In this document: positions 21,277 to 44,060 of the stretch, piece after piece
How the letters are laid out: each line of letters starts with the position of its first letter
Numbering within the stretch: the first letter of the stretch is position 1
NCBI RefSeq assembly: GCF_014696355.1
Contig: NZ_JACJQA010000036.1
Coordinates: 1-52,114 of the forward strand
DNA length: 52,114 bases
Direction of reading: 5' to 3'
Origin: Pseudanabaena sp. FACHB-1998
GTDB taxonomy: Bacteria > Cyanobacteriota > Cyanobacteriia > Pseudanabaenales > Pseudanabaenaceae
Translations under genes and position numbers: made by a program
The notes under the pieces: generated by a model
Seen by the model: the letters and a program-made list of their open reading frames with translations, nothing else
What the model was told of the DNA's origin: nothing
Database searches by the model: none

Positions 21277-21352
21277 AAGTGTTGTTACATTTTTATGAAT
21301 TGAAAATCCTTCTCATTAGATATAGCCATAGTCATTTGTATTAGGACAAATC

Positions 21353-21407
21353 AAAACCCCAATATTGTGAGGAGGCGCTTTGCGCCTCCTCACAATATTG
21401 GGGTTTT
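21353..21407. repeat. 26-bp palindrome, apex GC-TTT-GC
   Basis: Perfect arms 21353-21378 and 21382-21407 inside the composite element, between the converging MBL and Ycf23-like genes. Confidence 0.9.
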
Positions 21408-21440
21408 ATGTCTCGATCTAGCCATTCTTATTAAGACACA

Positions 21441-21491
21441 AACCCAGAAGACGAGTGGCGGCACGAAGCGCCGCCACTCGTCTTCTGGGTT
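21441..21491. repeat. 22-bp inverted repeat, 7-base loop
   Basis: Perfect arms 21441-21462 and 21470-21491 around ACGAAGC. The arm core GAAGACGAGTGGCGGC is a covariant of those at 41054-41106 and 43990-44028. Confidence 0.88.
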
Positions 21492-21532
21492 TTGATTTGT
21501 CCTAATGGCAAGTGACCACAGCTATAAATTAG

Positions 21533-22297
21533 TTAAACAACTGCTTGATGAGCAACATTGCTATTGATTGATTCTCCCATTGATTCTCTGAGAGCGCGAA
21601 CAGTAGCAATCATAGAAACTACATCGTTCAATTGATTCACAGCCGAACCAACACCAACACCCGCAGCACCAGATGCGATCGCCATCGGAGCTGTGATATT
21701 GCTCAAGCCAGAAGCGCAAAGTACAGGAATAGAAACAGCACGGCTAATGGCATGGGCAGCCGCAAGGGTAGGAGATGCCTTTTCGATCGCTCCAAGTACA
21801 CCTGCATGGGTGGGAGCCGAGCTTGTGCCACCTTCGGTTTGGATGATATCTGCTCCGATCGCTTCGAGCTTTTCCGCAAGACTAACTTGCTCATCGAGGG
21901 GCAAAGTATGAGGAACAGTTACGGAAATGGCTGTGTGAGGCAACAAGGCTCTAGTTTCTGCGGTCAAAGCAATAATTTCATCGGCAGTAAATACACGACC
22001 TTGAGCATAGAAGCTATCGTAGTTACCGATTTCCACGAGATCAGCACCACTCGCTACAGCTTCTACTAATTTGCTAGCTTCAACGGCGGAGACACATACA
22101 GGCAAAGAGCAATTAGCCTTCGCGATCGCAATTAGCTTAGCATCAGCCGCAATATCCACAAACGTAGCGCCGCCGCGATCGGCAGCTTGCACGACCATTT
22201 TCACAGAATCAGGATTGAAGTTGTGCAGACCGCTAATAATCTTAAGGGCGTTGCGGCGGCTGAAAGCAGTTGCTAAAGCAATAGGTAAACGGGACAT
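21533..22297 (-). CDS. DUF561 / Ycf23-like TIM-barrel protein
   Basis: A 254-residue protein of the DUF561 family, related to chloroplast-encoded Ycf23; its function is not known. It looks like a beta/alpha barrel: ALKIISGLHNFNPDSVKMVVQAA near the N-terminus (ALKIISGLHNF), GGATFVDIAAD, LPVCVSAVE, GADLVEIGNYDSFY, QTEGGTSSAP and ASGAAGVGVGSAVN, a phosphate-binding-like loop. ATG at 22297 (MSRLPIALAT) gives the usual distance to ALKII; ATG at 22309 is possible. The frame runs further upstream into the adjacent MITE, but that extension is an artefact of the insertion. The element sits about 30 bases before the start and may affect its promoter. Confidence 0.85.
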   Translation of the reverse strand: MSRLPIALATAFSRRNALKIISGLHNFNPDSVKMVVQAADRGGATFVDIAADAKLIAIAKANCSLPVCVSAVEASKLVEAVASGADLVEIGNYDSFYAQGRVFTADEIIALTAETRALLPHTAISVTVPHTLPLDEQVSLAEKLEAIGADIIQTEGGTSSAPTHAGVLGAIEKASPTLAAAHAISRAVSIPVLCASGLSNITAPMAIASGAAGVGVGSAVNQLNDVVSMIATVRALRESMGESINSNVAHQAVV

Positions 22298-22329
22298 AAG
22301 CTTGGTCATCCTAATAGACTTAATATTTA

Positions 22330-22469
22330 GAGCGTGTTTGAGAAGTTTTTTACCCCCTCTAACTCCCCCTTGAAAGGGGGAGGATTCAAGTTTCCCCCCT
22401 TTCAAAGGGGGGATTAAGGGGGGTAAAAGCAGAAATTTATGCTAGATAGGAGACTTCTCAAACACGCTC
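22330..22469. mobile_element. 140-bp MITE-like element, copy 2
   Basis: Same ends (GAGCGTGTTTGAGAAG / CTTCTCAAACACGCTC) and same length as copy 1, with a handful of inner differences that largely keep the nested G/C repeats. TTA flanks both sides (22327-22329 and 22470-22472). It lies immediately upstream of the Ycf23-like gene. Confidence 0.87.
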
Positions 22470-22515
22470 TTAGATGTACGAATACTTTAACGCGATTTTG
22501 TGTAAAACCAAAACC

Positions 22516-22564
22516 GAGCAAATTTTTGAAAGCTTGACAAAGCCAAGCTTTCAAAAATTTGCTC
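22516..22564. repeat. 21-bp inverted repeat touching a stop codon
   Basis: Perfect arms 22516-22536 and 22544-22564, loop ACAAAGC. The right arm includes part of the stop codon (22563-22565) of the minus-strand hypothetical gene. Confidence 0.85.
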
Positions 22565-23129
22565 AGGCTTCAGTGGTAATTCCAAAAAAATGTCGCTGAA
22601 TTATGAAGCCAAAAGTAGCGTCGCCTAAAGGAATCTGACCGTTAAGGACATATTCATGCTTCCGCCAAAGGCTTTGCAATTCCTGCTCTTTGACCTCAAT
22701 CTCGTCAGCAGGTAATCGGTTTAAATGGCGATCGTAGCTCAGCAAGTCCCTAGTGCGATTTAAATTATCCGAGGAAAAGACTGAAGTAATTTCCCAATCT
22801 TCTAATTCTCCTTCCACACATACCCACGTAGATTGACACCCATCGGACAGCCAAGTCAATTTACGCAAAACCTCGCCATCTAAGGAATGCTCATAGTCCA
22901 ATTGATCGTTACTAGTATCGATCGCTATAAAAATAACTTCACCAAAAATCTCGGATAGCTCTTGGGTCAAATATTCCTCTCCCTCAAAAGCACCGTCTAC
23001 TAAACTATCGCCAAAATCACAGACAATCCAATCCGAATTAGGAATTCTCTCAAATTGAGAAAACTTTTCTTTCAATTTGATGGGAGGCTGTTGGGTTTTC
23101 AGAAAGTAAGCGTTAAAAAATATACTCAT
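22563..23129 (-). CDS. Hypothetical protein
   Basis: A 188-residue acidic soluble protein that I do not recognise. It starts MSIFFNAYFLKTQQPPIKLK and has WIVCDFGDSLVDGAF, an EVIFIAIDTSNDQLDYEH segment and a C-terminal GDATFGFIIQRHFFGI. Cysteine and tryptophan spacing suggests no metal site. There is no signal or membrane helix. The gene is divergent from rpsD and seems monocistronic. Confidence that it is a real gene rests on length, ATG start and codon use like its neighbours. Confidence 0.7.
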   Translation of the reverse strand: MSIFFNAYFLKTQQPPIKLKEKFSQFERIPNSDWIVCDFGDSLVDGAFEGEEYLTQELSEIFGEVIFIAIDTSNDQLDYEHSLDGEVLRKLTWLSDGCQSTWVCVEGELEDWEITSVFSSDNLNRTRDLLSYDRHLNRLPADEIEVKEQELQSLWRKHEYVLNGQIPLGDATFGFIIQRHFFGITTEA

Positions 23130-23159
23130 AGCATGAAGCCTTAATCCAAGCAGTTATTT

Positions 23160-23195
23160 GGAGAGAGTAAAAGTGTAAATACGTTTACTCTCTCC
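23160..23195. repeat. 12-bp inverted repeat
   Basis: GGAGAGAGTAAA (23160-23171) pairs with TTTACTCTCTCC (23184-23195), 12-base loop, 30 bases upstream of the hypothetical gene. Confidence 0.7.
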
Positions 23196-23260
23196 AATAA
23201 CTTTTTGAATATCGAAAGGCAAGTAAACAAAATAAATTTTACAATTCATGAAAATTTAAT

Positions 23261-23353
23261 TAGGACTTACGCCAAGCTAGCGAATTTATTGGGTTTGGGG
23301 TAGATGTGTCGCGGGCAAAGCCCGCGACACATCTACCTGATCGTAAGTCCCTA
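23261..23353. mobile_element. 93-bp palindromic element with TAGGACTTACG ends
   Basis: TAGGACTTACG (23261-23271) faces CGTAAGTCCCTA (23342-23353). Between them is an 18-bp perfect palindrome (arms 23299-23316 and 23320-23337, apex GC-AAA-GC). The ends resemble MITE termini common in cyanobacteria (from memory). No coding capacity. Confidence 0.65.
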
Positions 23354-23400
23354 TTAATGCTAAATCTCTAAGTAGCGAAGCGTAATTAAAAAACACAACC

Positions 23401-23439
23401 AAAAGCTGTGAAGCACGCTTAGCGTGCGCCACAGCTTTT
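23401..23439. repeat. 18-bp near-palindrome, apex GC-TTA-GC
   Basis: Arms 23401-23418 and 23422-23439 pair except for two adjacent bases (AA against GC). Divergent spacer upstream of rpsD. Confidence 0.8.
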
Positions 23440-23494
23440 AGGGCTTGCATCTAGCTACCTAGAAGTGGTCAAGTTTATTAATCCGTAAAACCCT

Positions 23495-23533
23495 CGAAGA
23501 GAAAGGCGGCTCATCGCGCCGCCTTTCTCTTCG
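23495..23533. repeat. 16-bp inverted repeat
   Basis: CGAAGAGAAAGGCGGC (23495-23510) pairs with its complement at 23518-23533 around TCATCGC, about 100 bases upstream of rpsD. Confidence 0.82.
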
Positions 23534-23634
23534 GGGAGTTTATTCAAAAACTTCATTGCTTGGTCAATATTTTTGTCAAAATTGTCCTATACTAGGTAGG
23601 CTGTCAAGTTTTCAACAGTAACAAGGAAGGAGCT

Positions 23635-24243
23635 ATGTCCCGTTATAGAGGTCCGCGCCTCAGAATCGTCAGAAGACTAGGAGAACTACCTGGTCTCAGC
23701 CGCAAACAACCCAAGCACGCATATCCACCTGGACAACATGGACAAGACCGCAAAAAGCGTTCTGAGTATGCTGTTCGTCTCGAAGAAAAGCAAAAACTAC
23801 GTTTTAACTACGGTTTAACCGAAACTCAACTATTGCGCTATGTACGTCGCGCTAGAAGAGTTAAGGGTTCTACAGGGCTAGTATTGCTACAACTGCTAGA
23901 AATGCGTCTAGACAATACCGTTTTCAGACTCGGACTAGCGCCAACCATTCCTGCGGCACGTCAATTGGTAAATCACGGGCATGTCACTATTAATGGCAAG
24001 AGCGTAACTATTCCTAGCTACGGTGTAAAGCCTGGTGAAGTAATTAGCATCAAAGATAACGAAAAGTCTCGTAAGATCGTCGAGCGTAACCTCGAATTTC
24101 CCGGCTTGTCGAATATTCCTAGCCATTTAGAGTTTGATAAAGCAAAACTAATTGGCAAAGTCAATGGCATTGTCGAACGCGAATGGGTGGCATTGCAAGT
24201 GAACGAACTGCTGGTTATTGAGTACTACTCACGCCAAGCTTAA
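23635..24243 (+). CDS. rpsD: 30S ribosomal protein S4
   Basis: A primary 16S rRNA-binding protein of the 30S subunit. The 202 residues match cyanobacterial S4. It starts [20 protein letters not shown], followed by [20 protein letters not shown] and the S4 RNA-binding domain ([40 protein letters not shown]). AAGGAAGGAG lies five bases before the ATG. As usual in cyanobacteria, rpsD stands alone rather than with rpsM/rpsK/rpoA. Confidence 0.97.
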
Positions 24244-24393
24244 GGTTGAAGCAATCAGCTACGGGCTATCTCGCTCTTGGAATTCTTTATTTTTAAGACC
24301 AGCTCTTAGACAAGTCGCTTGTAGCTGAAAGCCTTCAAACTGGGTAAACTGCCAATTGAGTAAACTCTATAAGGTTCATCTTCACTGCGAATT

Positions 24394-24981
24394 ATGCAGT
24401 TAAATATTTCTGCTCCAGAAACCCTCGATTTAAATGTTCCTAAGGATTTTGTTAGGGGTTGTCCCCGCAGTGTCCGTATGGATATCGATCATCTGCTTCT
24501 AGCGATCGAGGCGCTGGATTTAGAAGCAGTTGAGGTCATGCTTGTTTTAGTTGATCAGTTAAACTTACAAAAGACTATTCCTAGTCGAGTAGCTTTTTGG
24601 CGGCTGCGAAATACTAATCCTTTGCGCCGTAATTATCAACGTGCAAGCCTAAGCTGGGATGAGCTAAAGGCTTTAGTAAAAATTGTCTGTACTTTAGCAA
24701 AGCAGTTAGATACTGGTTTGCGTTTGTTGCTGAGTACCCATCAACAGGTGACTGAAGGCAAGATTGAGTCACTGGGTCTACAGCAAAATCAAGCTTATTT
24801 AGAGACGTATATAGATCGCTTCAAATCGTTGTATATCGGTCGAATGCGATCGCCTTCACCTTTAAGTGATGAGGAGATTCGTGAGTTAGCCCTCCAACTA
24901 TTAACGCGATTATTGTTATGTAGTGGTGTGGCGGGAGAATTTCGCCTTTGGAATAGTCTGTTTGACGGAGCGATCGCCTAA
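24394..24981 (+). CDS. DUF3038 protein
   Basis: A 195-residue cyanobacterial DUF3038 protein, apparently soluble and mostly helical (VRMDIDHLLLAIEALDLEAV, LTRLLLCSGVAGEFRLWNSL). Its function is unknown. The stop TAA overlaps the ATG of the next gene (TAATG at 24979-24983), so the two are translationally coupled. The pairing of DUF3038 with DUF4335 is recurrent in cyanobacteria from what I recall, which supports a joint role. Confidence 0.82.
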   Translation: MQLNISAPETLDLNVPKDFVRGCPRSVRMDIDHLLLAIEALDLEAVEVMLVLVDQLNLQKTIPSRVAFWRLRNTNPLRRNYQRASLSWDELKALVKIVCTLAKQLDTGLRLLLSTHQQVTEGKIESLGLQQNQAYLETYIDRFKSLYIGRMRSPSPLSDEEIRELALQLLTRLLLCSGVAGEFRLWNSLFDGAIA

Positions 24982-25706
24982 TGATTCAGCGTAGTTATAA
25001 TTTGCCAAGTTGTACTTTGCTAATTGAGGGTATCAGTACTGGCGGGGATGTACTATCAATTTTGACGAGTTTTGGTTGTCGCTTTAATCATCAGTCTGAA
25101 CCAATTATTGGTGGGCTAGAGCTTCTCAATGCCCTAATTAAAGTGGTAGGAGCCTACGCTCAAGCCCTGAAAAGTAGCACGACCTTAACCATTCCTGAGG
25201 GCTTAGTGAGTTTGCAATCCGATGGCAAGCATGTCCATATGCTGGCGGTCAAACTTAACGAAGCCGATGCCAGTAATCCCAAAAAGTTAGAAATCAAGCT
25301 TAATACGATTCAATTGTTTGATTTGATGGAGGTTCTTGATCGCCTCTGTTGTGATCCCACCACTTTGCCAGACCTCAGACTGGTGACTAAAATTTCTGAC
25401 TACCGCACCCAGACTCAACTAAATAGCCAAGCAGTACCTGCGATCGCTGGTGTAATTAGTTTAGCGATCGCTGCCACAGTCATATATTTTATCCCCACAC
25501 CCAAGCCTCAACCTAAGCCTGCTCAGACTCTCCCTGTCCCAACTAAGGCGTTGCCGAAGGACTTAACAACACCTGCTGCTAGTCCATCACCAACTAGTAC
25601 TCCAACCAGTACAGCCAGTCCTGAAAGCTCACCAACACCTTCACCCACATCTACAAGTTCGACAAGTCCTGAAAGCTCACCAACTGCTAGTCCTAGAGCA
25701 AATTAA
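24981..25706 (+). CDS. DUF4335 protein with membrane anchor and Ser/Thr/Pro tail
   Basis: A 241-residue DUF4335 protein. Residues 1-145 are the folded domain, beginning MIQRSYNLPSCTLLIEGI and including NALIKVVGAYAQALKS. A membrane helix follows at about 153-170 (VISLAIAATVIYFIP). The tail of about 70 residues is almost only P, S, T and A and contains a repeat of SPESSPT with matching DNA repeats. The tail probably lies outside the plasma membrane. It is coupled to the DUF3038 gene. Function unknown. Confidence 0.82.
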   Translation: MIQRSYNLPSCTLLIEGISTGGDVLSILTSFGCRFNHQSEPIIGGLELLNALIKVVGAYAQALKSSTTLTIPEGLVSLQSDGKHVHMLAVKLNEADASNPKKLEIKLNTIQLFDLMEVLDRLCCDPTTLPDLRLVTKISDYRTQTQLNSQAVPAIAGVISLAIAATVIYFIPTPKPQPKPAQTLPVPTKALPKDLTTPAASPSPTSTPTSTASPESSPTPSPTSTSSTSPESSPTASPRAN

Positions 25707-25735
25707 TTACTTAATAAGTGTTGCTTATTTTTGTG

Positions 25736-25770
25736 CAGAAAAGGGAAGTGCTAAGCACTTCCCTTTTCTG
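25736..25770. repeat. 17-bp palindrome, apex GC-TAA-GC
   Basis: Perfect arms 25736-25752 and 25754-25770, 30 bases after the DUF4335 stop. TTTTC near the end gives weak terminator character. Confidence 0.82.
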
Positions 25771-25862
25771 TAGAGAGTTTCGTAGCTTTATATACATAGC
25801 TAAAGGTGGATCTGAGGCTCAATTGATATAGAGATTTTTGCGTTCTTTGTGTCTTAGGGTTG

Positions 25863-26975
25863 ATGGCTGAGTTACTCGATCCGACCAAGCTTTTATTTGA
25901 TTTACATCGCGGTACAGAAATAGCCGAAACCTTTTCTGGGTGTTTAGATCCAGAGGCGATCGCGCATCGAGTTACTGATGGCATTGTGGAGCGCTTTGAT
26001 TGTGCCTTTGCCCGTGTGTGGTTATTGGAGCCAGAACGTAATTTTTTAAAGCTTGTTGCCTCGTCGGGGATGTATACGCGCCTTGATGGGCGATTTGCCA
26101 GAGTGCCGATGGGGGCATATAAAGTGGGGAAAATTGCTCAAAATCGCGTTTCTTTTTTAAGTAATAACTTAGCGGATGAGCCTTGGGTGGGCGATCGCCA
26201 ATGGGCTATGAGCAATAATATTCGTGGATTTGCGGGATATCCTTTAGAGATCAAGGGGCGCGTCGTGGGCGTTTTGGCAGCCTTTAGTCATCGAGCGATG
26301 CCGCCTGAGTTTTTAGAATTTTTACGAATGCTCTGCACGATCGCCGCGATCGCCATTGATAGCGCCTTTAAGCACCAACAGGAAAAACAAATTTGGCAAA
26401 ATTTAAGCCAAGATTTGAATTCACTTCCTTTGGAACAGGTATCGCTGTCTGATCGCTTAGCCCATATTCTGAATTCCAATCGCTTGACATTAGTGGGTAC
26501 AGAAAGATCGCTAAATCTGAGCATTGAATATGTATTTTTGAAAGCGGCAGAAATCTTGAATCACATCGGTGGGGCTTATTGCCGTCTGATTTACAGCGAT
26601 GTGTCTATATCCCTTGAGGCAATTATTGCCAAGACCGCTAATCAGATTACCGATCCGCAAAACTGGATGCGATCGCTATTTAGGGAATTATTTTTAATCG
26701 TTTCCAGCTTGGGCGGTGCGATGAAAATTCATCCTACAGAATTACAAATTACGATTACGATTCCCTTGGCTAAAGAGTCTAATCCTCTGTCTGAGCGCGA
26801 ATTAGAGATGATGCAATTATTAACTCAAGGATTGCGCGATCGGGATATCGCTCAACAATTAATTATTAGTGAAAGCACGGTCAAGTTTCATATCAATAAT
26901 ATTTTGACCAAACTCAAGGCAAGAACACGTTTTCAGGCTTTGCATTTAGCAATGGTCAATGGTTGGCTGATTTAA
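25863..26975 (+). CDS. GAF-domain transcription regulator with LuxR-type HTH
   Basis: A 370-residue regulator. Residues about 20-165 form a GAF domain (FSGCLDPEAIAHRVTDGIVE, RVWLLEPERNFLKLVASSG, IRGFAGYPLEIKGRVVGVLA). A linker with two helical segments follows. Residues about 305-370 are a LuxR/NarL helix-turn-helix: PLSERELEMMQLLTQGLRD, then ISESTVKFHINNILTKLKA. It probably binds DNA as a dimer in response to a ligand or redox signal sensed by GAF; targets are unknown. The frame begins with a TTG at 25860, but ATG at 25863 is the likely start. No sensor kinase is adjacent. Confidence 0.85.
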   Translation: MAELLDPTKLLFDLHRGTEIAETFSGCLDPEAIAHRVTDGIVERFDCAFARVWLLEPERNFLKLVASSGMYTRLDGRFARVPMGAYKVGKIAQNRVSFLSNNLADEPWVGDRQWAMSNNIRGFAGYPLEIKGRVVGVLAAFSHRAMPPEFLEFLRMLCTIAAIAIDSAFKHQQEKQIWQNLSQDLNSLPLEQVSLSDRLAHILNSNRLTLVGTERSLNLSIEYVFLKAAEILNHIGGAYCRLIYSDVSISLEAIIAKTANQITDPQNWMRSLFRELFLIVSSLGGAMKIHPTELQITITIPLAKESNPLSERELEMMQLLTQGLRDRDIAQQLIISESTVKFHINNILTKLKARTRFQALHLAMVNGWLI

Positions 26976-27002
26976 TTACAGAGCTTGCGCTCAAATCTGA
27001 GT

Positions 27003-27051
27003 AATAAATTTTTTGAAAGTGTTGCTTCACAACACTTTCAAAAAATTTATT
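27003..27051. repeat. 22-bp inverted repeat downstream of the LuxR-type gene
   Basis: Perfect arms 27003-27024 and 27030-27051 with a CTTCA loop and A/T-rich bases; it could end the regulator transcript. Confidence 0.85.
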
Positions 27052-27131
27052 GGTTCGTTTGCTTGACGGGACGATCGCAAAAAAACAACAATGGATTAAA
27101 TCAATTTAATCAAGATCAGTCAAATTACCCT

Positions 27132-27156
27132 AAGCTAAAAGCTAAAAGCTAAAAGC
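27132..27156. repeat. Heptanucleotide tandem repeat AGCTAAA
   Basis: Just over three copies of AGCTAAA lie 20 bases upstream of aspA. Short heptamer arrays (STRR-like) are common in cyanobacteria and can vary in copy number. Confidence 0.75.
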
Positions 27157-27175
27157 CACAAGCCTTATAAAAACT

Positions 27176-28564
27176 ATGACTAGAACCGAACGCGACTCCA
27201 TGGGGGAAATGTCCCTGCCCGATGATGTTTACTATGGTATCCAAACCGTTAGGGCGATCGATAATTTTAAAATTAGTGGACTAAAGCCCCTCCCCACCTT
27301 TGTGGATGCTTGCTTGCTGATCAAAAAAGCAACTGCATTAGTTAACGCTGAACTGGGTTGTATTCCTGTCGGGATGGGCATGGCGATCGCGGCGGCGGCG
27401 GATGAAATTTTAGATGGAGCTTTGCGCGATCAATTTGTGGTGGATGTTTACCAAGCGGGGGCTGGTACATCGCATCACATGAATATTAATGAAGTACTAG
27501 CCAATCGCGCCCTTGAAATTTTAGATGATGTGAAAGGCAATTACCAAAATGTGAATCCTAATGATCACGTTAATTATGGACAATCAACAAATGATGTGAT
27601 CCCCACAGCGATTCGGATTGGCGCATTATTAGCCCTTGATCATGTGTTATTTCCTGCCTTGGCAAACCTCAACGAACAGTTACGCATTAAGGCGATCGCT
27701 TTTTCAGATATTGTTAAATCGGGACGCACCCATTTACAGGATGCCGTTCCCGTCAGACTTGGTGATGAATTTCAAGCCTATGCCCAAATCATTAGCGAGC
27801 ATGTTAAACGGATTCACCAAGCAGCGAATGATCTAAAAACCTTGGGCTTAGGGGGTAGTGCTTCAGGTACAGGGTTAAATACTCATCCCCAATATTGCGA
27901 TCGCGTTGCCGAAAAGCTGAGCGAAATTACAGGCTTTGATCTAAAGCCCGCCAGTAACCTCATGGCAGCAATGCAAAGTATGGCTCCCTTTGTGAATGTA
28001 TCAGGAGCGATTCGTAACCTTGCTCAAGATACCTGCAAAATTGCAAACGATTTGCGCTTGATGGATTCAGGACCTAAAACAGGTTTGCGGGAAATTCAGT
28101 TACCACCCGTTCAACCCGGTTCATCGATTATGCCCGGAAAATATAATCCTGTAATTGCCGAGATGACGAATATGGTCTGTTATCAGGTGATTGGTTATGA
28201 CACCGCGATCGCCTTTGCAGCACAGGCTGGTCAATTGGAATTGAATGTGATGATGCCTCTGATTGCCTATGATTTGATTCAAAGCATTGAGATTTTAGGT
28301 AAGGCGATCGATACTTTAGCGACTAAGTGCATTAGGGGGATTACTGCACAGGAAGATCGTTGTCTTGCCTATGCTGAAGGTAGTTTATCTCTAGTGACCG
28401 CGCTAAATACGCATATTGGTTATTTGAATGCTGCGGACGTGGCTAAAGAATCTTTAGCCTCTGGCAAGTCATTGCGTCAGGTTGTTTTAGATAAAGGCTT
28501 GATGACCGAAGAGAAGTTAGCTGAAGTTCTCAATCTCGAACAAATGAGTCGTCCCAATGGTTAA
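27176..28564 (+). CDS. aspA: Aspartate ammonia-lyase
   Basis: Aspartase, which reversibly splits aspartate into fumarate and ammonia, in the fumarase/aspartase superfamily. The 462-residue protein has the three conserved regions: AGAGTSHHMNINEVLANRA, VKSGRTHLQDAVPVRLG and the flexible catalytic loop GSSIMPGKYNPVIAEM. The MPGKYNPV form and NMNxNEV-like (here MNINEV) text favour aspartase over class II fumarase, though argininosuccinate lyase is excluded only by eye. The role in nitrogen and carbon balance fits a neighbourhood with amt, but no operon links them. Confidence 0.82.
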   Translation: MTRTERDSMGEMSLPDDVYYGIQTVRAIDNFKISGLKPLPTFVDACLLIKKATALVNAELGCIPVGMGMAIAAAADEILDGALRDQFVVDVYQAGAGTSHHMNINEVLANRALEILDDVKGNYQNVNPNDHVNYGQSTNDVIPTAIRIGALLALDHVLFPALANLNEQLRIKAIAFSDIVKSGRTHLQDAVPVRLGDEFQAYAQIISEHVKRIHQAANDLKTLGLGGSASGTGLNTHPQYCDRVAEKLSEITGFDLKPASNLMAAMQSMAPFVNVSGAIRNLAQDTCKIANDLRLMDSGPKTGLREIQLPPVQPGSSIMPGKYNPVIAEMTNMVCYQVIGYDTAIAFAAQAGQLELNVMMPLIAYDLIQSIEILGKAIDTLATKCIRGITAQEDRCLAYAEGSLSLVTALNTHIGYLNAADVAKESLASGKSLRQVVLDKGLMTEEKLAEVLNLEQMSRPNG

Positions 28565-28567
28565 TCC

Positions 28568-28602
28568 CAAGGCACAAAATGGCGTAGCCATTTTGTGCCT
28601 TG
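28568..28602. repeat. 16-bp palindrome, apex GC-GTA-GC
   Basis: Perfect arms 28568-28583 and 28587-28602, beginning four bases after the aspA stop. The inner AAAATGGC-GTA-GCCATTTT core is shared with the accA/FTR1 palindrome. Confidence 0.85.
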
Positions 28603-28646
28603 ATTGCAATTGCCTAAACTTGACTTGAAATTATGGCTATAGATCA

Positions 28647-29027
28647 ATGATTACTTCCATTTATGCAGCACTGTCATCGCTTTTGATTGTATGGCTGTCC
28701 TTCAATGTCGTTAAATTGCGTCAATCTGGGCGCGTCATACTGGGTGATGGCGGCAATCCTGATCTACAGGTAGCGATCCGTGCCCAAGGTAATGCCACCG
28801 AATATATTCCCATTTCGCTGATTTTACTCTTGTTATTAGAACTGAGTAAGGGTAATGCCCTGATGTTACATATTGGTGGAATCGCTTTGCTAATCGGGCG
28901 ATCGCTCCACGCCTACGGACTAACAACCAGCAATTTAAAGCTGCGGGTATCGGGAATGGCTTTCACCTTTAGCAACATCATCTATTTGGCGATCGCTAAT
29001 CTTGTGAGTCATTACTTTAGGACATAG
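28647..29027 (+). CDS. MAPEG-family membrane protein
   Basis: A 126-residue protein with four hydrophobic helices, of the MAPEG/YecN family (membrane-associated eicosanoid and glutathione metabolism proteins). The family signature region is visible: VVKLRQSGRVILGDGGNPDL, then RAQGNATEYIPISLILLLL (the R..N..E motif for glutathione contact). Bacterial members are thought to be glutathione transferases or peroxidases; substrate unknown. The stop TAG lies inside the left arm of the downstream palindrome. Confidence 0.85.
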   Translation: MITSIYAALSSLLIVWLSFNVVKLRQSGRVILGDGGNPDLQVAIRAQGNATEYIPISLILLLLLELSKGNALMLHIGGIALLIGRSLHAYGLTTSNLKLRVSGMAFTFSNIIYLAIANLVSHYFRT

Positions 29028-29061
29028 AATGGGCGGCGCTTTGCGCCGCCCATTCTATGTC
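29021..29061. repeat. 19-bp palindrome containing the MAPEG stop codon
   Basis: Perfect arms 29021-29039 and 29043-29061, apex GC-TTT-GC. The TAG at 29025-29027 is in the left arm, so the final coding base triplets are mirrored on the other side. It ends 30 bases before glmU. Confidence 0.88.
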
Positions 29062-29090
29062 TAACTTTATTAAATCAGAAAGGAGAAAAA

Positions 29091-30452: not shown

Positions 30453-30460
30453 TATCAAAT

Positions 30461-35532: not shown

Positions 35533-35609
35533 GCTTCAAGAAATTTAAAAGTGCTGCGAAGTAGCACTTTAAAAGTGCTGCGAAGTAGCACTTTTAAATT
35601 TCTTGAAGC
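35533..35609. repeat. Palindrome with a tandemly duplicated 24-bp hairpin unit
   Basis: Outer arms 35533-35555 and 35587-35609 (23 bp) pair perfectly. Inside, the unit at 35547-35570 is repeated exactly at 35571-35594, each a small hairpin (AAAGTGCT / AGCACTTT). So it can fold as one long stem or two short ones. It ends one base before the DUF1574 gene stop. Confidence 0.85.
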
Positions 35610-35610
35610 A

Positions 35611-37713: not shown

Positions 37714-37801
37714 TGGATGTTAAGAGAGCGCCAGAATGAAAATTTTGCTACAAGGTTAGCACGGTCAATTCACTACATCACAAAAAGTTTCTCTTGCCTT
37801 T

Positions 37802-37846
37802 TAATAATTAGGGGTGGGCGGCTTTGCCGCTCACCCCTAATTATTA
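37802..37846. repeat. 21-bp near-palindrome, apex GC-TTT-GC
   Basis: Arms 37802-37822 and 37826-37846 pair with one G/T mismatch. It lies between the prepilin stop and the DUF1574 start, both on the minus strand. Confidence 0.82.
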
Positions 37847-37869
37847 GAGAAATCTGTCCCCCGCCTTTT

Positions 37870-38523
37870 TTAAGTCTGATTACAGGATGAACTTACTGCC
37901 GATCGCATTACCCCCAAAACTGTCGAAATAATCACACATTTTCGGCGATCGCCTACTTTAGAAGAAAAAGTAATTCGCCCTAGCTCCCCTAACCCGTCAA
38001 CATTCCCCTTAGCATCAAACTTGACCCGATAAACATCTGGCTCAGGAACAGCCGAAAGTTTAGTAAAAGTTGTCCTTGGTTGCGACTCTATATCTTCAAC
38101 AATTCTGACACCTATATCAAAACTTTCCCAAGGTAAGCCATCCCAATAAGCTGCCGTAGTATTAAAGGTAGGAGTCTTATGAACAGCATACTGAGCGCGA
38201 TTAACTGTATTCCTAAAGCTAACTTGCCAATTTAGCTGTTCTTGTTTGGACTTACTTTGTGCTAAGCGGAGAGAACTAAGCGCGATCGTTTGTGCAGAGT
38301 TCAGGCTTTGATTACTCGAAAATCCCAACCACGAAGGCGAGGCGATCGCGGTTAATATTCCCACAAAAGCTAAGGCAACTAAAAGCTCAAGCAAAGTAAA
38401 CCCCGATCCTAAGTTATGAGATCTTTTATGAAAGCGACGATGACGACGCGCAGGTGGAAGACGAGACTTTGGAGATAAATTGTTGTGCAGATATCGTAAA
38501 TATCTAGCCCTTGTTATCGGCAT
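37870..38523 (-). CDS. GspH/FimT-like type IV prepilin
   Basis: A 217-residue minor-pilin-like protein. The class III prepilin signature GFTLLELLVALAFVGILTAI has the processing Gly, the +5 Glu and the hydrophobic spine, followed by a GspH/FimT-type beta domain (AQTIALSSLRLAQSKSKQEQ, LGRITFSSKVGDRRKCVIIS). Two cysteines near the C-terminus (RRKCVI, SSCNQT) could form a disulfide. The leader is unusually long: from ATG 38523 (MPITRARY) about 40 basic residues precede GFTLLE, and the frame can be extended 35 codons further. The true start is uncertain. Confidence 0.82.
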   Translation of the reverse strand: MPITRARYLRYLHNNLSPKSRLPPARRHRRFHKRSHNLGSGFTLLELLVALAFVGILTAIASPSWLGFSSNQSLNSAQTIALSSLRLAQSKSKQEQLNWQVSFRNTVNRAQYAVHKTPTFNTTAAYWDGLPWESFDIGVRIVEDIESQPRTTFTKLSAVPEPDVYRVKFDAKGNVDGLGELGRITFSSKVGDRRKCVIISTVLGVMRSAVSSSCNQT

Positions 38524-38628
38524 AATATCTTCTATTTTTTTTGTAGGTTTTAGATGTTTCCTTTGATTGTAACGAGTTTTTCCAGTTAAAACATAGAAAT
38601 TTTCAAGATTTCTATCTATGACTACCAT

Positions 38629-38726
38629 CTACTCCCTTCCCACCGAAGAAATATGCATATGAAACCAAGAAATAGCTATGCGCGGCGAAGCCGCGCATAG
38701 CTATTTCTTGAGTGGGAAGGGAGTAG
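38629..38726. repeat. Nested palindromes, inner apex GC-GAA-GC
   Basis: Inner arms 38666-38686 and 38690-38710 (21 bp) are perfect. Outside them CTACTCCCTTCCCAC (38629-38643) pairs with GTGGGAAGGGAGTAG (38712-38726). The left stretch between the two pairings is not mirrored. Confidence 0.85.
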
Positions 38727-38763
38727 TGGCGCGAATCGTCACTAATTCTGGGATTAAAAAAAT

Positions 38764-38798
38764 AAAGCTGTGGCGCACGCGCACACAGCTTTTTTGGG
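38764..38798. repeat. 9-bp hairpin with T6 tail
   Basis: AAAGCTGTG and CACAGCTTT pair around GCGCACGCGCA, and a T-run follows on the + strand. No + strand gene ends before it. Confidence 0.65.
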
Positions 38799-38816
38799 TT
38801 TAGCTACTTGATATCC

Positions 38817-38863
38817 AACGTAAACAGAGTTAGAGCGTTTTGCGTCCTAACTCTGTTTACGTT
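38817..38863. repeat. 17-bp inverted repeat
   Basis: Perfect arms 38817-38833 and 38847-38863 with a 13-base loop, about 115 bases upstream of the SLOG-type gene. Confidence 0.82.
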
Positions 38864-38978
38864 GTTATTTCCTGACTTAAGTGGCTACAAATATAAACAG
38901 AAATAGTTAGTTTGCTTCGCTAGGGGCTAAGTGATATTGTGTAAGTATTCGTTCAAGTAATAAACGAGAGGGATTTGT

Positions 38979-39482
38979 TTGACTCAGTCAATTAATCTAC
39001 CTAAGCTAGACGACTTTTTGCAGGAACTTGCGACAATCCAGCAGCAAGGCTCGAAGCGGATTGCGTTTTTAGGCTCCCGCCATGTGCCACTTACCCACCA
39101 ACTGCTGATCGAGTTGCTAAGTTATGCCTTGGCACTATCAGGCAATACCATTATTACCTCTGGTGCAACAGGCACAAATTTTGCGGCAATTCGCGGCGCA
39201 CTAAGGGCTGATCCCAACCTATTGACCGTAATTCTGCCCCAAAGTCTCGAAAGACAACCCTATGAATCTCGTGAGCAGCTAGAAAATGTGATTCATTTAA
39301 TTGAGCATAGCGAGAATGATAGTTTGTCTTTAGCCGAGGCGAGTAGCCTCTGTAACCAAGAAATCATTTCTAAATGCCAGCAACTAATTTGTTTTGCGTT
39401 TCATGGCAGTGAAACTTTGCTGCAAACTTGCCGTGACGCTGAAGAACAGCGTAAGGTTGTAACCTTGTTTTATTTCGATTGA
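38979..39482 (+). CDS. SLOG-fold protein, DprA-like
   Basis: A 167-residue protein with a Rossmann-like SLOG domain: KRIAFLGSRHVPLTHQLLIE, then GNTIITSGATGTNFAAIRGA, LTVILPQSLERQ and the C-terminal half with CQQLICFAFHG. It resembles the nucleotide-binding core of DprA/lysine-decarboxylase-like proteins and is often labelled DNA recombination-mediator protein A in cyanobacteria (memory of annotations). It lacks the rest of DprA. The start is TTG at 38979, seven bases after AGAGGG; no ATG precedes the domain. Function unknown; nucleotide binding is inference. Confidence 0.72.
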   Translation: MTQSINLPKLDDFLQELATIQQQGSKRIAFLGSRHVPLTHQLLIELLSYALALSGNTIITSGATGTNFAAIRGALRADPNLLTVILPQSLERQPYESREQLENVIHLIEHSENDSLSLAEASSLCNQEIISKCQQLICFAFHGSETLLQTCRDAEEQRKVVTLFYFD

Positions 39483-39539
39483 TTTAAGTAGGATCAACCT
39501 ACAGCAAATTAGTCATGAGATTATTGAGTAGCAAAAATT

Positions 39540-40088
39540 ATGAGTAAGACGATTAAAGGCAAAGTATTTGTCTTGGATGACAATATTGATACTGACCAGA
39601 TTATTCCTGCGGAGTATCTTACACTTGTGCCATCAAAGCCCGATGAGTACGAGAAATTGGGGAGTTATGCATTAATCGGTTTGCCCGATCGCTACGATCG
39701 CTTTATTCCCGAAGGTGAAATGAAAACGGTGTATTCGATCATCGTGGCGGGAGAAAACTTTGGTTGTGGCTCATCCCGTGAACATGCACCGATCGCCCTT
39801 GGGGCAGCAGGGTTAGAGTCGGTAGTTGCTCAGTCCTATGCGCGGATCTTCTTCCGCAATTGCACTGCTACAGGCGAGTTATATCCTTGGGAATCGATTG
39901 ATCGCTTAGTAGATCATTTTAAAACTGGGGAAGAAGCCACCATCGATTTTGACAATAATCTAATTATTAATGAGACGACTGGTAAAACCTTTAACCTTAA
40001 GTCTCTCGGTGATGTGCGTCCTGTGATTGATGCGGGCGGCTTATTTGACTATGCCCGTCAAACAGGCATGATTCCCACTCGCGTTTAG
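39540..40088 (+). CDS. leuD: 3-isopropylmalate dehydratase small subunit
   Basis: The swivelling small subunit that with LeuC isomerises 2- to 3-isopropylmalate in leucine synthesis. The 182-residue protein starts KGKVFVLDDNIDTDQIIPAE, with the active-site loop GENFGCGSSREHAPIALGAA and IFFRNCTATGELYP. The length and text are closer to the shorter aconitase-like/archaeal-type small subunits than to E. coli LeuD (about 200 residues), so a homoaconitase-type role cannot be excluded. leuC is not in the window. The next gene begins 12 bases after its stop. Confidence 0.85.
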   Translation: MSKTIKGKVFVLDDNIDTDQIIPAEYLTLVPSKPDEYEKLGSYALIGLPDRYDRFIPEGEMKTVYSIIVAGENFGCGSSREHAPIALGAAGLESVVAQSYARIFFRNCTATGELYPWESIDRLVDHFKTGEEATIDFDNNLIINETTGKTFNLKSLGDVRPVIDAGGLFDYARQTGMIPTRV

Positions 40089-40100
40089 ATTTTTTGACCT

Positions 40101-40472
40101 ATGTCCTATCACGTTCGCATCCACGATCGCCAACAAGATAAAGTTTACGAAGCTGATATTGATAGCGATCGCTATATCCTTGATTGCCTAGAAGATCAGG
40201 GAATTAATTTGCCTTTTTCCTGTCTCAATGGGGCTTGTACGGCTTGCGCCATGCGCGTTAAGTCGGGACAAATCGACCAGCATGAGGTAATTGGTTTATC
40301 CAAAACCTTACAGGATGAGGGTTATGCGCTGATTTGTTCGAGCTATGCCTTGTCTGACTTAGACTTAGAAACTCAAGACGAAGATGAAGTCTATCGCTTA
40401 CAATTTGGCAATTTCTTTGCTAAACAAAGGCGACGCTGGTTCCAGTTTGGTATACCCCTAGATCATGACTAA
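40101..40472 (+). CDS. [2Fe-2S] plant-type ferredoxin with C-terminal extension
   Basis: A 123-residue electron carrier. Cluster ligands are seen in CLNGACTACAMRVKSG (C-x4-C-x2-C) and the fourth cysteine in YALICSSYALSD. Residues 1-90 are the usual beta-grasp fold. After that the protein has a 30-residue extension, DEDEVYRLQFGNFFAKQRRRW and FQFGIPLDHD, absent from photosynthetic PetF. It is therefore likely a special-purpose ferredoxin. The 3' end overlaps the thermonuclease start by eight bases. Confidence 0.88.
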   Translation: MSYHVRIHDRQQDKVYEADIDSDRYILDCLEDQGINLPFSCLNGACTACAMRVKSGQIDQHEVIGLSKTLQDEGYALICSSYALSDLDLETQDEDEVYRLQFGNFFAKQRRRWFQFGIPLDHD

Positions 40473-41049
40473 GATCATGAATAGGGTGAGACAATCATCC
40501 ACCAAATCTTCCAATCGTTTTGTGATTTTGGTGGTGTTGCTAATTGCCTTTTTAACGATCGCCAATATGGCGATCGCTTTTCTGCAACCCAACGATAAAG
40601 TCAATGGCGAGCTGTGGATTGTGAATCGTGTCATTAGTGGTCAAACCGTCGAAGCCTCAATTGTCAATAACCCCAACACGACTGTGCAGCGTGTGCGCTT
40701 GCTAGGAATTAGCGCTCCTCTCAAAGAACAGTCACCTTGGGGCGATCGCGCTCGTCAGCGTCTATCGGATTTGGTTAAAGAGCAGAAGGTGATTTTAGAG
40801 TTTGATATTGAGCAGAAAGATAAATCCGATCGCTTGCTTGCCTATGTTTGGAAAGATAATTTATTAGTTAATCAGTATTTAGTCTCCGAAGGTTTGGCGA
40901 TCGCTGATTCCTATGCCCCCAATGTGAAATATGACGCAAGGATCAGTCGCGCTCAATCGAAAGCAAGGCTACAAGAGCTAGGGATTTGGGATACCCAAAA
41001 TCCATTACGTCTCAGTCCTAGAGACTTTAGCCGCCAGCTAGGTAATTAA
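40465..41049 (+). CDS. Membrane-anchored thermonuclease (SNase-like)
   Basis: A 194-residue SNase/TNase-like protein. A membrane anchor or uncleaved signal lies at residues about 18-40 (FVILVVLLIAFLTIANMAIAF). The nuclease domain has VQRVRLLGISAPLKE, where the D-T-P of classical nuclease reads S-A-P, then WGDRARQRLSDLV, DKSDRLLAYVW and the substrate-contact NQYLVSEGLAIA. The substitution suggests altered or lost catalysis. It overlaps the ferredoxin gene and so is coupled to it. A role at the periplasmic or thylakoid membrane face is inference. Confidence 0.82.
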   Translation: MTKIMNRVRQSSTKSSNRFVILVVLLIAFLTIANMAIAFLQPNDKVNGELWIVNRVISGQTVEASIVNNPNTTVQRVRLLGISAPLKEQSPWGDRARQRLSDLVKEQKVILEFDIEQKDKSDRLLAYVWKDNLLVNQYLVSEGLAIADSYAPNVKYDARISRAQSKARLQELGIWDTQNPLRLSPRDFSRQLGN

Positions 41050-41124
41050 GTCAAAACCCAAGAAGCAAGTGGCGGCGCATCTCGCCGCCACTTGCTTCTT
41101 GGGTTTGGCAAGTGCCTACAGCTA
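41046..41124. mobile_element. TATAGC-type palindromic element abutting the thermonuclease stop (left end cut)
   Basis: It starts TTAAGTCAAAACCC, a match to the inner left end of the elements at 21.3 and 43.9 kb (TTAAGACACCAAACC). It ends TGGCAAGTGCCTACAGCTA, their right end. The outer left end is missing where it meets the gene, and the TAA stop falls inside the element start. The inner hairpin is 41054-41106. Confidence 0.6.
41054..41106. repeat. 24-bp inverted repeat, 5-base loop
   Basis: Perfect arms 41054-41077 and 41083-41106. The GAAGCAAGTGGCGGC core covaries with 21441-21491 and 43990-44028. Confidence 0.88.
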
Positions 41125-41153
41125 AGTAACTAGGCGAAATTAAATATAAAACT

Positions 41154-41196
41154 CCAAAGCCTATGGCGCACGCTGCGCGTGCGCCATAGGCTTTGG
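41154..41196. repeat. 20-bp palindrome, apex GC-TGC-GC
   Basis: Perfect arms 41154-41173 and 41177-41196, 30 bases from the end of the minus-strand pentapeptide gene. Confidence 0.88.
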
Positions 41197-41226
41197 GGCT
41201 GGGTTTTTAATTATGCCCAGCTATAA

Positions 41227-41691
41227 CTAATTGGCGGTAGCTAAGTTGTAACTTGTGCCAGAGAAATCTGCCCCAAATATTTGGGCATTTTTAAAAACAG
41301 TATTGTTAATATTAGCTCTGCGTAGATTGGCATGAGTCAATGACGCATTAGTAAAATTAGTCCCCTGCAAATTAGTGTCATTGAGAATCGCGTTAGTGAC
41401 AAAAGCATTGGAAAGATTAGCATTTTCCAATTTTGCCCCCGTTAGATCCGCTCCTTCAAGATTAGCTTTGCTAAGATTTGCACCCCGCAAATTTGCACCC
41501 ATTAGAGAAGCCCCGATTAAATGAGATTGACTGAGATTAGCCCCCGCAAGGTTTGCGTTAGTTAAGTCACAACCTCCACATTGCTTAGTTTGGAGTAGTT
41601 GTTGCAATTGACTTGGATCGTAAGCTTCAGCAGGCATAGCCCACCAAATAGTACAGACAACTGCGGCGATCGCGATTAATTTAGTTTTCAT
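41227..41691 (-). CDS. Secreted pentapeptide-repeat protein
   Basis: A 154-residue protein with an N-terminal signal peptide (IAIAAVVCTIWWAMPAEA) and then about 22 tandem A(N/D)Lxx pentapeptides (GANLSQSHLIGASLMGANLR and so on). These coil into a right-handed square beta helix. A CGGC at about residue 38-41 may be a disulfide or cap. Secreted into periplasm or thylakoid lumen by inference. Function unknown; the family occurs in very high copy number in cyanobacteria. Confidence 0.85.
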   Translation of the reverse strand: MKTKLIAIAAVVCTIWWAMPAEAYDPSQLQQLLQTKQCGGCDLTNANLAGANLSQSHLIGASLMGANLRGANLSKANLEGADLTGAKLENANLSNAFVTNAILNDTNLQGTNFTNASLTHANLRRANINNTVFKNAQIFGADFSGTSYNLATAN

Positions 41692-42118
41692 GATGCCCTC
41701 CTCTCTTCGAGGAATGCTATGACTTAATTATTGCTTTAATTTCTATTTGTGTCCTCATGCTTTTGTATTATTTATTACTAAAATATAGTGGCTTTATAGA
41801 AGATATCTAATAAGTTTTAATCGATCTATTTATACAGAAATGGCTTATTAAAATATCAAAAAATTGCAAATTGTTTAATATTACTATCTATAGATGTTTA
41901 GCAAAGTGACAAATTCATACAAATACATATACAATGCTTGATTTAATTAGGTTAACTCAAACTCTAAAGTAGCAATAGGAAAGCTTTTATACTCAAATCT
42001 AATTTTGGTTTATGCTATTTAATTTGTTGGATTCTTGGATGTTTTTCTTTGCCAATTAACTAAGTATAAATACCTTTCTAAAATTAGTTTGTTCCATTAA
42101 TTTACTCTGAGACGATTC
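41692..42118. other. AT-rich spacer between pentapeptide gene and miaA
   Basis: No gene, palindrome or repeat that I can support. Unlike most spacers in the window it lacks a large palindrome. Divergent promoters are expected here. Confidence 0.6.
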
Positions 42119-43069
42119 ATGAATTCTGCTCACATCTCCACAAACAAATCCGTTGGTTTAATTGTAATTTTGGGGGCAACAGCTACAGGCAAAACAAGTT
42201 TGGCGATCGCTCTGGCAAAACAACTCAACGCACCTATTTTGAGCGCTGATTCGCGCCAAGTTTATCGTTACTTAGATATTGGTACAGCCAAGCCCACTCT
42301 TGAGGAACAGCAAGGCGTACCGCATTATTTAATTGACATCGTTGAGCCTGACGCAACTTTGACGCTGGCGGACTATCAAGACCAAGCCCAAAATTTAATA
42401 GCTAAGTTTCATGCGGAGGGTATCACCCCAATTCTTGTAGGAGGGTCGGGGCTATATATCAAGGCGATCGCTTCAGGGCTAAAGATTCCGCGAGTGTCGC
42501 CACAACCAGAACTGCGATCGCAACTTGAGGAACTAGGTCAAAACTACTGCTACCAAGTATTACAACAGGTCGATCCCCTTGGGGCTACCAAAATTCATGC
42601 CAATGATCAGGTACGAACCTTACGATCGCTTGAAGTGTTTTATGTAACGGGTCAGCCTCTGTCGGCGCAGCAATACGAGCAGCCGCCCAGTTATCCCATT
42701 ATCCAAATTGGCTTAGAATGTGCCGATCTTGATACCTATCGTCAATTGGTCAGCGATCGCACTGAGCAGATGATCGAGCGTGGTTGGTTAGAGGAAATTC
42801 GCGTTCTCCAACAACACTATGGTGGGGATCTACCGCTTTTAAAAACTTTGGGCTATGGGGAAATGTCGGACTATTTAGCCACTAAAACCGACCTAGAGAC
42901 CGCCAAATTACTCACCATTACCCATACCTGTCAATTTGCCAAGCGTCAGCGCACATGGTTTCGCGGCTCTGGCAATGGCAATCTCCCGATTCATTGGCTA
43001 CCCACAGGCAGTAGTTGGCAACAGGCGATCGCTTTGATAGGTGAGGCACACGAATCGCCGCACCTATAA
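42119..43069 (+). CDS. miaA: tRNA dimethylallyltransferase MiaA
   Basis: Adds dimethylallyl to adenosine 37 in tRNAs reading codons that start with U. The 316-residue protein has the P-loop GATATGKTSLAIALAK, then SADSRQVYRYLDIGTAKP, HYLIDIVEPD, GGSGLYIKAI and KRQRTWFRG. Length normal, ATG start. It is read towards a hydroxylase gene 93 bases downstream and may be cotranscribed with it. Confidence 0.95.
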   Translation: MNSAHISTNKSVGLIVILGATATGKTSLAIALAKQLNAPILSADSRQVYRYLDIGTAKPTLEEQQGVPHYLIDIVEPDATLTLADYQDQAQNLIAKFHAEGITPILVGGSGLYIKAIASGLKIPRVSPQPELRSQLEELGQNYCYQVLQQVDPLGATKIHANDQVRTLRSLEVFYVTGQPLSAQQYEQPPSYPIIQIGLECADLDTYRQLVSDRTEQMIERGWLEEIRVLQQHYGGDLPLLKTLGYGEMSDYLATKTDLETAKLLTITHTCQFAKRQRTWFRGSGNGNLPIHWLPTGSSWQQAIALIGEAHESPHL

Positions 43070-43162
43070 TCCTTGAGTTTCAATGTCTATAGTATGGTTA
43101 TGCTTTTGTGAATTGAGATAAGCCCTAGAATATATTTATCGCGCTTAGCAAGAGCTAGCCCT

Positions 43163-43909
43163 ATGAAATTTGCGATCGCCTTCTTATCTCTTTGGTTCAT
43201 ATTTGGCATTCTCGAATGGTTATTTCCGCTCCGAAAAGAGCAGAAGCACTTTCGGCAAGGTTGGCTAACGGATGTAGCCCATTTTTTCTTTAATCATATT
43301 TTGATTAATGTGGGGACATATCTAATTGCTGTGATTCTCTATATTTTCTTTAAGGGCGCAATTTCGCCTGCATTGCAAACAGCCGTCCGAAGTCAGCCAA
43401 TTTTCTTGCAATTTGCGGAAGCATTTTTTATAGCCCAGTTATCCTTCTATTTCGTCCATCGTTTAGCCCATCAAAACTCTTGGCTATGGCGCTTTCATGC
43501 CATCCATCACAGTAGTGCCGAGCTAGACTGGTTAGCCTCCGCCAGACTCCATCCCGTAGAAATGATTGTTGTGAATCTTGCTGTAGGTGTTCCCTTATTT
43601 CTATTGGGATTCACTAGAGAAACCTTTGGAGCTTATCTAATCTTTGGCGCAGTTTTGCCAATTCTCAATCACTCAAATACTAGATTTCAATTTCCTTACC
43701 TCAATCGCATCATTGCGACCCCAGAATTCCACCATTGGCATCACAGCAACGATCGCGAAGCCCGCGATAAAAATTTTTCGGGCTTTCCGATTATCGATTT
43801 AATGTTTGGTACTTACTACCTCCCCAAAAATAAAATGCCCCAAACCTACGGAGTCGATGAGGTGATTCCTCAGACCTACTGGCAACATTTACTCTATCCT
43901 TTCAAATAA
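43163..43909 (+). CDS. Fatty acid hydroxylase / sterol desaturase family protein
   Basis: A 248-residue integral membrane di-iron enzyme. The three histidine clusters are seen: HRLAHQNSWLWRFHAIHHSS (HxxxH and HxxHH) and EFHHWHHSND. Four hydrophobic segments surround them. Members hydroxylate or desaturate lipids, carotenoids or sterols; the substrate cannot be read. The TAA stop lies in a downstream palindrome. Confidence 0.87.
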   Translation: MKFAIAFLSLWFIFGILEWLFPLRKEQKHFRQGWLTDVAHFFFNHILINVGTYLIAVILYIFFKGAISPALQTAVRSQPIFLQFAEAFFIAQLSFYFVHRLAHQNSWLWRFHAIHHSSAELDWLASARLHPVEMIVVNLAVGVPLFLLGFTRETFGAYLIFGAVLPILNHSNTRFQFPYLNRIIATPEFHHWHHSNDREARDKNFSGFPIIDLMFGTYYLPKNKMPQTYGVDEVIPQTYWQHLLYPFK

Positions 43910-43950
43910 GAATTAGAAAAGCGTTGCGAAGCAACGCTTTTCTAATTCTT
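43908..43950. repeat. 20-bp palindrome overlapping the hydroxylase stop, apex GC-GAA-GC
   Basis: Perfect arms 43908-43927 and 43931-43950; the stop (43907-43909) is split by its left edge. Its TTTTC tail gives weak terminator character. Confidence 0.87.
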
Positions 43951-43954
43951 ATTC

Positions 43955-44060
43955 TATAGCTGTTGCCATTCTTGTTAAGACACCAAACCAGAAGCGAGTT
44001 GCGGCGCTTCGTGCCACAACTCGCTTCTGAAATTTTAATTTTTAATGCAAGTGACTACAG
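43955..44060. mobile_element. TATAGC-type palindromic element, single copy
   Basis: Begins TATAGCTGTTGCCATTCTTG and ends GCAAGTGACTACAG, matching the ends of the composite at 21321-21526. The inner hairpin is at 43990-44028. It lies between the hydroxylase palindrome and the queC palindrome. Confidence 0.65.
43990..44028. repeat. 16-bp inverted repeat, one mismatch
   Basis: Arms 43990-44005 and 44013-44028 around GCTTCGT, with one C/A mismatch. AGAAGCGAGTTG pairs with CAACTCGCTTCT, a covariant of the other two family members. Confidence 0.8.

Follow-up and report, generated by a model that had tools for sequence, protein, structure and literature searches.

Copies of a hairpin element in the window

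The DNA analysed here, referred to as the window, is a stretch of 52,114 nucleotides from the cyanobacterium Pseudanabaena sp. FACHB-1998 (contig NZ_JACJQA010000036.1). At three places it contains copies of a short repeat that is almost certainly a miniature inverted-repeat transposable element (MITE). These elements are about 115 bp long, have termini of the form TATAGC...GCTATA and, between these, a hairpin about 25 bp long. The stems of the hairpins covary between copies. Covariation is normally taken as a sign of functional RNA; here, a mutation process acting on DNA explains it better.

An initial annotation of the window had reported related hairpins at the three places, and they are indeed present there (Table 1). 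It had further described 21321-21526 as a nested composite. This has been ruled out: a minus-strand and a plus-strand profile match adjoin at this place, so that it consists rather of two elements that abut and point in opposite directions. The same annotation assigned shared ends to the copies. The repeat family is real, but not every copy in the window has both ends. The copy at 41046 consists of the hairpin and the right end only, and a stretch beside the foot of its hairpin is missing. The copy at 43955 has a full left end, and its final right-end bases are ACAGATGAA instead of ACAGCTATA. In the reversed copy at 21321 the right end is complete and the left end is cut short. Folding of the window copies is far beyond that of shuffled sequences (z from -5.8 to -9.9), and none of 200 shuffles folded as well.

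Table 1. Element copies in the window, with the evidence for each.
Feature	Position	Strand	Evidence
MITE copy, reversed	21321..21423 (end about 21423)	-	profile match on minus strand, model positions 25-115; perfect 26-nt arms; hairpin 21353-21407
MITE copy, abutting the 21321..21423 copy in opposite orientation	21417..21526	+	profile 103.9 bits; perfect 23-nt arms; folding z -9.3; hairpin 21440-21492
Truncated MITE copy	41046..41124	+	profile 44.2 bits, model positions 20-113; perfect 24-nt arms; hairpin 41054-41106
Nearly complete MITE copy	43955..44065	+	profile 96.2 bits; sequence read; reverse self-match of hairpin; hairpin about 43989-44029

The element family

The consensus element is 115 nt long and consists of TATAGCTGTTGCCATTCTTGTTAGGACACAAAACC, the inner hairpin and then GGGTTTTGATTTGTCCTAATGCAAGTGACCACAGCTATA. 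A profile was built from 33 copies using their sequence and no pairing information. In the window's genome it gave at least 152 matches at E <= 0.001, the best with E 7.5e-36; the scoring covered 150 of 3,689 first-look candidates, and some places were counted on both strands. The genome stretches scanned hold 142 unique matches, among them 114 at 60 bits or more and 97 with both ends. Dropping five deletion derivatives from these 97 leaves 92 copies, and 78 of the 92 have a loop of three nucleotides. All counts by stem position refer to these 78. The element is short (about 115 nt) and present in many copies (97 read with both ends), and it has no transposase gene.

With one copy from the window as the query, matches were found in 18 of 29 genomes. 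These are the window's own genome and all 17 of the others from the genus Pseudanabaena; none of the 11 genomes outside the genus matched. The genus was inferred from a protein of the window: of its 13 best-matching named relatives, most come from Pseudanabaena (84-92% identity), and the first is a Phormidium tenue record. In one of the other species, G003, many contigs start or stop at a copy, and the family thus seems to break draft assemblies. No description of this family was met in the literature searched by title and start of abstract, which does not establish its absence from print.

Relationship to IS630-type insertion sequences

The window's genome has 11 matches to PF13358, the DDE domain of IS630-type transposases. 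Nine of these loci carry related ends of the TATAGC...TTAGGAC type, five with TATAGCTGTCGCCAAGTGTATTAGGAC or a variant of it (two of the five being the same place) and four with a second form, TATAGCAAAGAAAGAGATAGTTAGGACAAAT; the remaining two have neither form. One copy of the insertion sequence (IS) spans 953 bp, contains the domains HTH_Tnp_IS630 (1.5e-14) and DDE_3 (8.9e-28), and by eye lies at a TA within another reading frame, which it interrupts. A 27-nt IS end from the window's genome (G000) is identical at 27 of 27 positions to the left end of an element of another species (L386 of G014). Compared with the consensus ends of the window's own genome, it is identical at 21 and 22 of 27 positions.

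Insertion at TA is also seen. G003 has a clean element copy, with the TA duplicated, at a site that is empty in G014 (one pair of filled and empty sites), and 66 of the 97 copies are bordered by TA on both outer sides.

Three observations count against this relationship. The two domains of the 953-bp copy lie in separate frames. Both of its pieces fall below the NCBIfam cut-off for IS630, so that the copy does not demonstrate an intact transposase. Finally, only one of seven short insertion differences between G003 and G014 is a clean element copy; a second carries element ends but lacks a clean pair of TA, and the remaining five are other sequences. It is nevertheless highly probable that the elements are MITEs of an IS630-type element. 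To judge from the matching ends, they are most likely moved in trans by an IS630-type transposase.

A second element family with the same hairpin plan and with TATAGCAA... ends occurs in two further species, G007 and G009 (L184-L190 and L230-L235). The ends of this second family resemble the second form of IS end, TATAGCAAAGAAAGAGATAGTTAGGACAAAT, and a second IS630 lineage (IS loci L243-L245 and L248) has ends similar to them.

Covariation of the two arms

Among the 78 copies, 13 stem positions were compared. The pair is unchanged in 917 cells, changed on one side in 51, changed on both sides and still paired in 44, and changed on both sides and unpaired in 2. With shuffled arms, only 7.8 paired doubles are expected. 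Homologous stems with compensating changes in dispersed copies, as the initial annotation had proposed, thus occur well above chance. That annotation had also held that unpaired changes as numerous as paired ones would speak against its proposal. The literal count does so, at 53 against 44, but the covariation stands because chance would yield so few paired doubles.

Other measures of the same stems were obtained as well. The similarity of the two arms within a copy is 33.8, compared with 27.8 +/- 0.38 for shuffled arms, and lies above all 20,000 shuffles. When the arms of a copy's five nearest relatives by their ends are offered in place of its own partner arm, none of them surpasses the partner in 55 of 78 copies, and in 35 the partner is strictly the best. 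Base-pair covariation, which the initial annotation had suggested testing on collected copies, scores 0.067 for the 33-copy alignment, a value that none of 500 shuffles reached (0.034 +/- 0.006). RNAalifold misses the lower stem in this alignment, probably because arm forms differ by insertions and deletions; for this reason the arms were compared directly. The covariation in the inner hairpin is real.

An example of such arm forms is the pair A (AGCAGAAGAC, read outward) and B (AGCGAAGAAC). On nearly identical ends, they are found as A/B, A/A and B/B. Likewise, in G007 and G009, related ends carry different stems, nearly all of which are still perfectly paired. The outer parts of the element behave otherwise. 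They are asymmetric, with GATTTG on the right and ACA or ACAT on the left, and most copies examined retain this asymmetry, so that equalisation of the arms appears to be confined to the inner hairpin.

Inversion of the loop

The loop is GAA in 40 of the 78 copies and its exact reverse complement, TTC, in 29. Of these 69 copies, 29 have a nearest relative by ends that carries the opposite loop. Loops in reverse-complement forms are predicted if DNA is copied from arm to arm; they are not predicted by selection on pairing. Equalised arms together with inverted loops are the known signature of template switching in replication. The apex of many copies contains GCGAAGC or GCTTCGC. The former is an unusually stable DNA mini-hairpin, and such an apex might favour the folding of single-stranded DNA.

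Hairpins at shared sites

Hairpins can also be compared at sites shared by two genomes. The genomes compared here are those of other species of the genus. Between G014 and G003, 73,145 bases were aligned in 38 collinear pieces with 5.3% substitutions; one poorly aligned hairpin was skipped. In the flanks of the hairpins the substitution rate is 241/2529. The 35 shared hairpins contain 604 unchanged pairs, 62 changed on one side, 26 paired doubles and 4 unpaired doubles. Independent substitution would produce between 0.65 (at 5.3%) and 2.3 (at 10%) paired doubles. Eleven of the loops are the same, six are exactly inverted, three are inverted in their core, and 15 differ otherwise. In four of the 35 hairpins, a paired double and a loop inversion occur together.

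Individual pairs illustrate these changes. Among the elements, good cases are L447/L454, whose stems differ by a single mirrored change, and L450/L457, where a mirrored change is accompanied by an unpaired one. The best case outside the family is L448/L455, in which a GTA loop corresponds to TAC and the stem has one mirrored change and none unpaired. Between G007 and G009, one hairpin combines an ACC/GGT loop with one mirrored and one unpaired change, and another a TTT/AAA loop with one mirrored change. The pair L446/L458 was dropped as a shared site, being a repeat, and is not used.

These mirrored changes bear on a different explanation of the covariation: entire hairpins might be exchanged among dispersed copies by ectopic gene conversion or recombination, in which case both arms would come from another perfect copy. 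Elements L474 and L463 fit such an exchange, sharing their ends and differing in the hairpin at four mirrored pairs and the loop, as do subfamilies that have the same ends and differ in the whole form of the stem. The conserved apex and ends could act as recombination arms. On the other hand, stems that are identical apart from a single mirrored change (L447/L454, L450/L457 and L448/L455) require no donor, nor do inversions in hairpins outside the family. As the general explanation, conversion is improbable, although it may add to arm copying in cases such as L474/L463.

Errors of short-read assembly, or fold-back during library preparation, might also misorient loops and smooth arms. The genomes include drafts of many contigs, several of which end at elements. 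Yet stem changes and inversions are found in several assemblies made independently of one another (G000; G003 and G014; G007 and G009), and decayed copies were assembled too, 25 of the 78 having an unpaired position among the 13. An artefact is very improbable.

Several results weigh against arm copying. Changes on one side outnumber paired doubles, both among the copies (51) and at the shared hairpins (62). The orientation of the loop is not significantly coupled to the state of the arms (p 0.23): A/B hybrids have nine GAA and two TTC loops, and A/A and B/B copies together have nine and eight. For three of the 35 shared hairpins, the two sequences compared may belong to different insertions; without these three, 32 hairpins remain, with 16 paired doubles, eight inverted loops and three hairpins that have both. 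Six clean shared hairpins match the element profile. They contain six paired doubles, 12 one-sided changes and one unpaired double, and none of the six has an exactly inverted loop (two are the same and four differ otherwise). The clean loop inversions at shared sites are in hairpins that do not match the profile. Most of the assemblies are, moreover, drafts.

Is the hairpin selected as an RNA?

The initial annotation concluded from the compensating changes that pairing is maintained. In its usual form, this would mean that the hairpin acts as an RNA, for instance as a bidirectional terminator, an mRNA stabiliser or a small RNA, and that selection keeps the compensation. Some features agree with such a role. 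Both strands form very stable folds, and a T-rich tract adjoins the foot of the hairpin on both sides of the consensus. The elements lie nearer to the 3' ends of genes, at a median distance of 58 bp (n=81) against 121 bp for 5' ends (n=101), so that an effect on transcripts is possible. At the shared hairpins, the 62 one-sided changes are not in excess of the number predicted, which is 70 from the genome-wide rate or 125 from the local flank rate.

Selection on one strand as RNA should leave G-U pairs better tolerated than A-C mismatches. No such excess of G-T was found. In the 92 copies, the mismatches are 26 G-T, 39 A-C and 37 others (p 0.14 for the first two), and at the 13 stem positions of the 78 copies there are 15 G-T and 20 A-C. 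Orientation shows no bias either: relative to tandem genes it is random, with 29 copies in the same and 26 in the opposite direction (n=55). A bidirectional terminator would also lack a strand bias, which leaves it as a possible added role.

The setting of the copies was considered as well. All three places in the window lie between convergent frames, which made a terminator of convergent genes a candidate. Genome-wide, the 97 copies divide into 55 between tandem, 23 between divergent and 13 between convergent frames, three inside a frame and three without two flanking frames. Six of the 97 thus have no usable flanking pair, and 13 of the remaining 91 are convergent, compared with four of 48 control gaps of at least 100 bp (30 tandem, 14 divergent, 4 convergent). 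The candidate was therefore rejected, and the convergent setting in the window looks coincidental. Rfam gave no match at gathering scores within the window.

The reverse-complement loops and the paired doubles at shared sites, about 10 to 40 times the number expected from independent substitution, likewise argue against selection on an RNA. This explanation is unlikely. What the initial annotation had seen as covariation is real, but the step from there to a selected RNA is not supported.

A proposed model for rewriting of the hairpin

The arm-copying reading can be put as a model. The process would start with a short non-autonomous element with IS630 (Tc1/mariner) ends, which an IS transposase would move in trans into a TA. 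Inside its asymmetric ends it would carry a long hairpin, one arm of which mutates first. Replication would then occasionally switch template within the folded hairpin and copy one arm onto the other, often taking the loop along in inverted form. The outcome would be a stem that changes its sequence and stays self-complementary.

That the changes in the hairpin arise by such copying during replication is probable. Template switching, rather than another process that copies one arm onto the other, is presumably its cause.

Hairpins throughout the genus

The genus is rich in hairpins, and the element family makes up one part of them. Sampled stretches of ten Pseudanabaena genomes contain 1.0-6.1 perfect hairpins per 10 kb with arms of 15 bp or more, compared with 0-0.5 in stretches from eight genomes outside the genus. 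The stretch of G019, of only 267 bases, was left out of this count. One shuffle of each sampled stretch gave no such hairpin. Several perfect hairpins lie at the 3' ends of genes, some of them including the stop codon, and similar hairpins are found at many 3' ends in the genus.

Other repeats of the window may be mentioned here. A perfect hairpin with 23-nt arms at 43905-43953 includes the stop codon of the gene at 43163-43909. Directly after the truncated MITE, at 41127-41223, lies a hairpin element of another kind (AATTAAATATAAAAC...GCGCACGCTGCGCGTGCGC...TTAATTATGCCCAGCTA); some insertion differences between the G003 and G014 genomes are relatives of it. Finally, a 147-bp repeat at 22327-22473 (of the TTTTACCCCCTCTAACTCCCCC type) is found with 84-96% identity at many places in other genomes of the genus, for instance many times in G002.

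It is conceivable that mobile and gene-end hairpins are rewritten throughout the genus by frequent template switching, which would restore self-complementarity without selection for pairing and make compensation with loop inversion routine. This wider proposal is tentative, standing just short of an even chance; its odds were lowered slightly because the clean shared element hairpins include no exact inversion. Should template switching be as common as it appears, its rate, direction and tract length could be measured on the many hairpins that species of the genus share. The element family itself is a warning case for covariation tests, and possibly a calibration set for them.

Comparison with known systems

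The family consists of MITEs of the known IS630 kind and would be an unusually rich example of a known mechanism. ISY100 of Synechocystis is described as an element of 947 bp with imperfect terminal repeats of 24 bp that duplicates its target TA (PMC2170065). Similarly to ISY100 and the IS630-Tc1-mariner elements, the IS described here is 953 bp long, has matching ends and lies in a TA, and one insertion of the element duplicates TA. Unlike elements of the ISY100 type, the MITE has long asymmetric ends and a core that is hypervariable yet self-complementary. In being short intergenic inverted-repeat elements of bacteria or cyanobacteria, ERIC (PMC10969869) and Nezha MITEs resemble the present family by description.

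Another comparison is with the REPINs of Pseudomonas, mobile hairpins for which compensatory changes have already been described (PMC3116915). Both are dispersed mobile hairpins with conserved outer parts. REPINs, however, are tied to RAYT transposases and are marked by a GTAG or CGTC tag at the foot of the hairpin, whereas the ends found here match an IS630-type element.

Template switching between short inverted repeats has been reported to homogenise the arms and invert the spacers (PMC8604942), and an account of RNA genes attributes multiple compensatory changes and loop inversions to it (PMC8794818). For rRNA, the latter account presents compensation combined with loop inversion as the strongest support to be expected and as extremely rare, with six cases. 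In contrast, both occur together in four of the 35 hairpins shared between G014 and G003, or three of 32 without the doubtful ones, though the criteria of the two counts differ.

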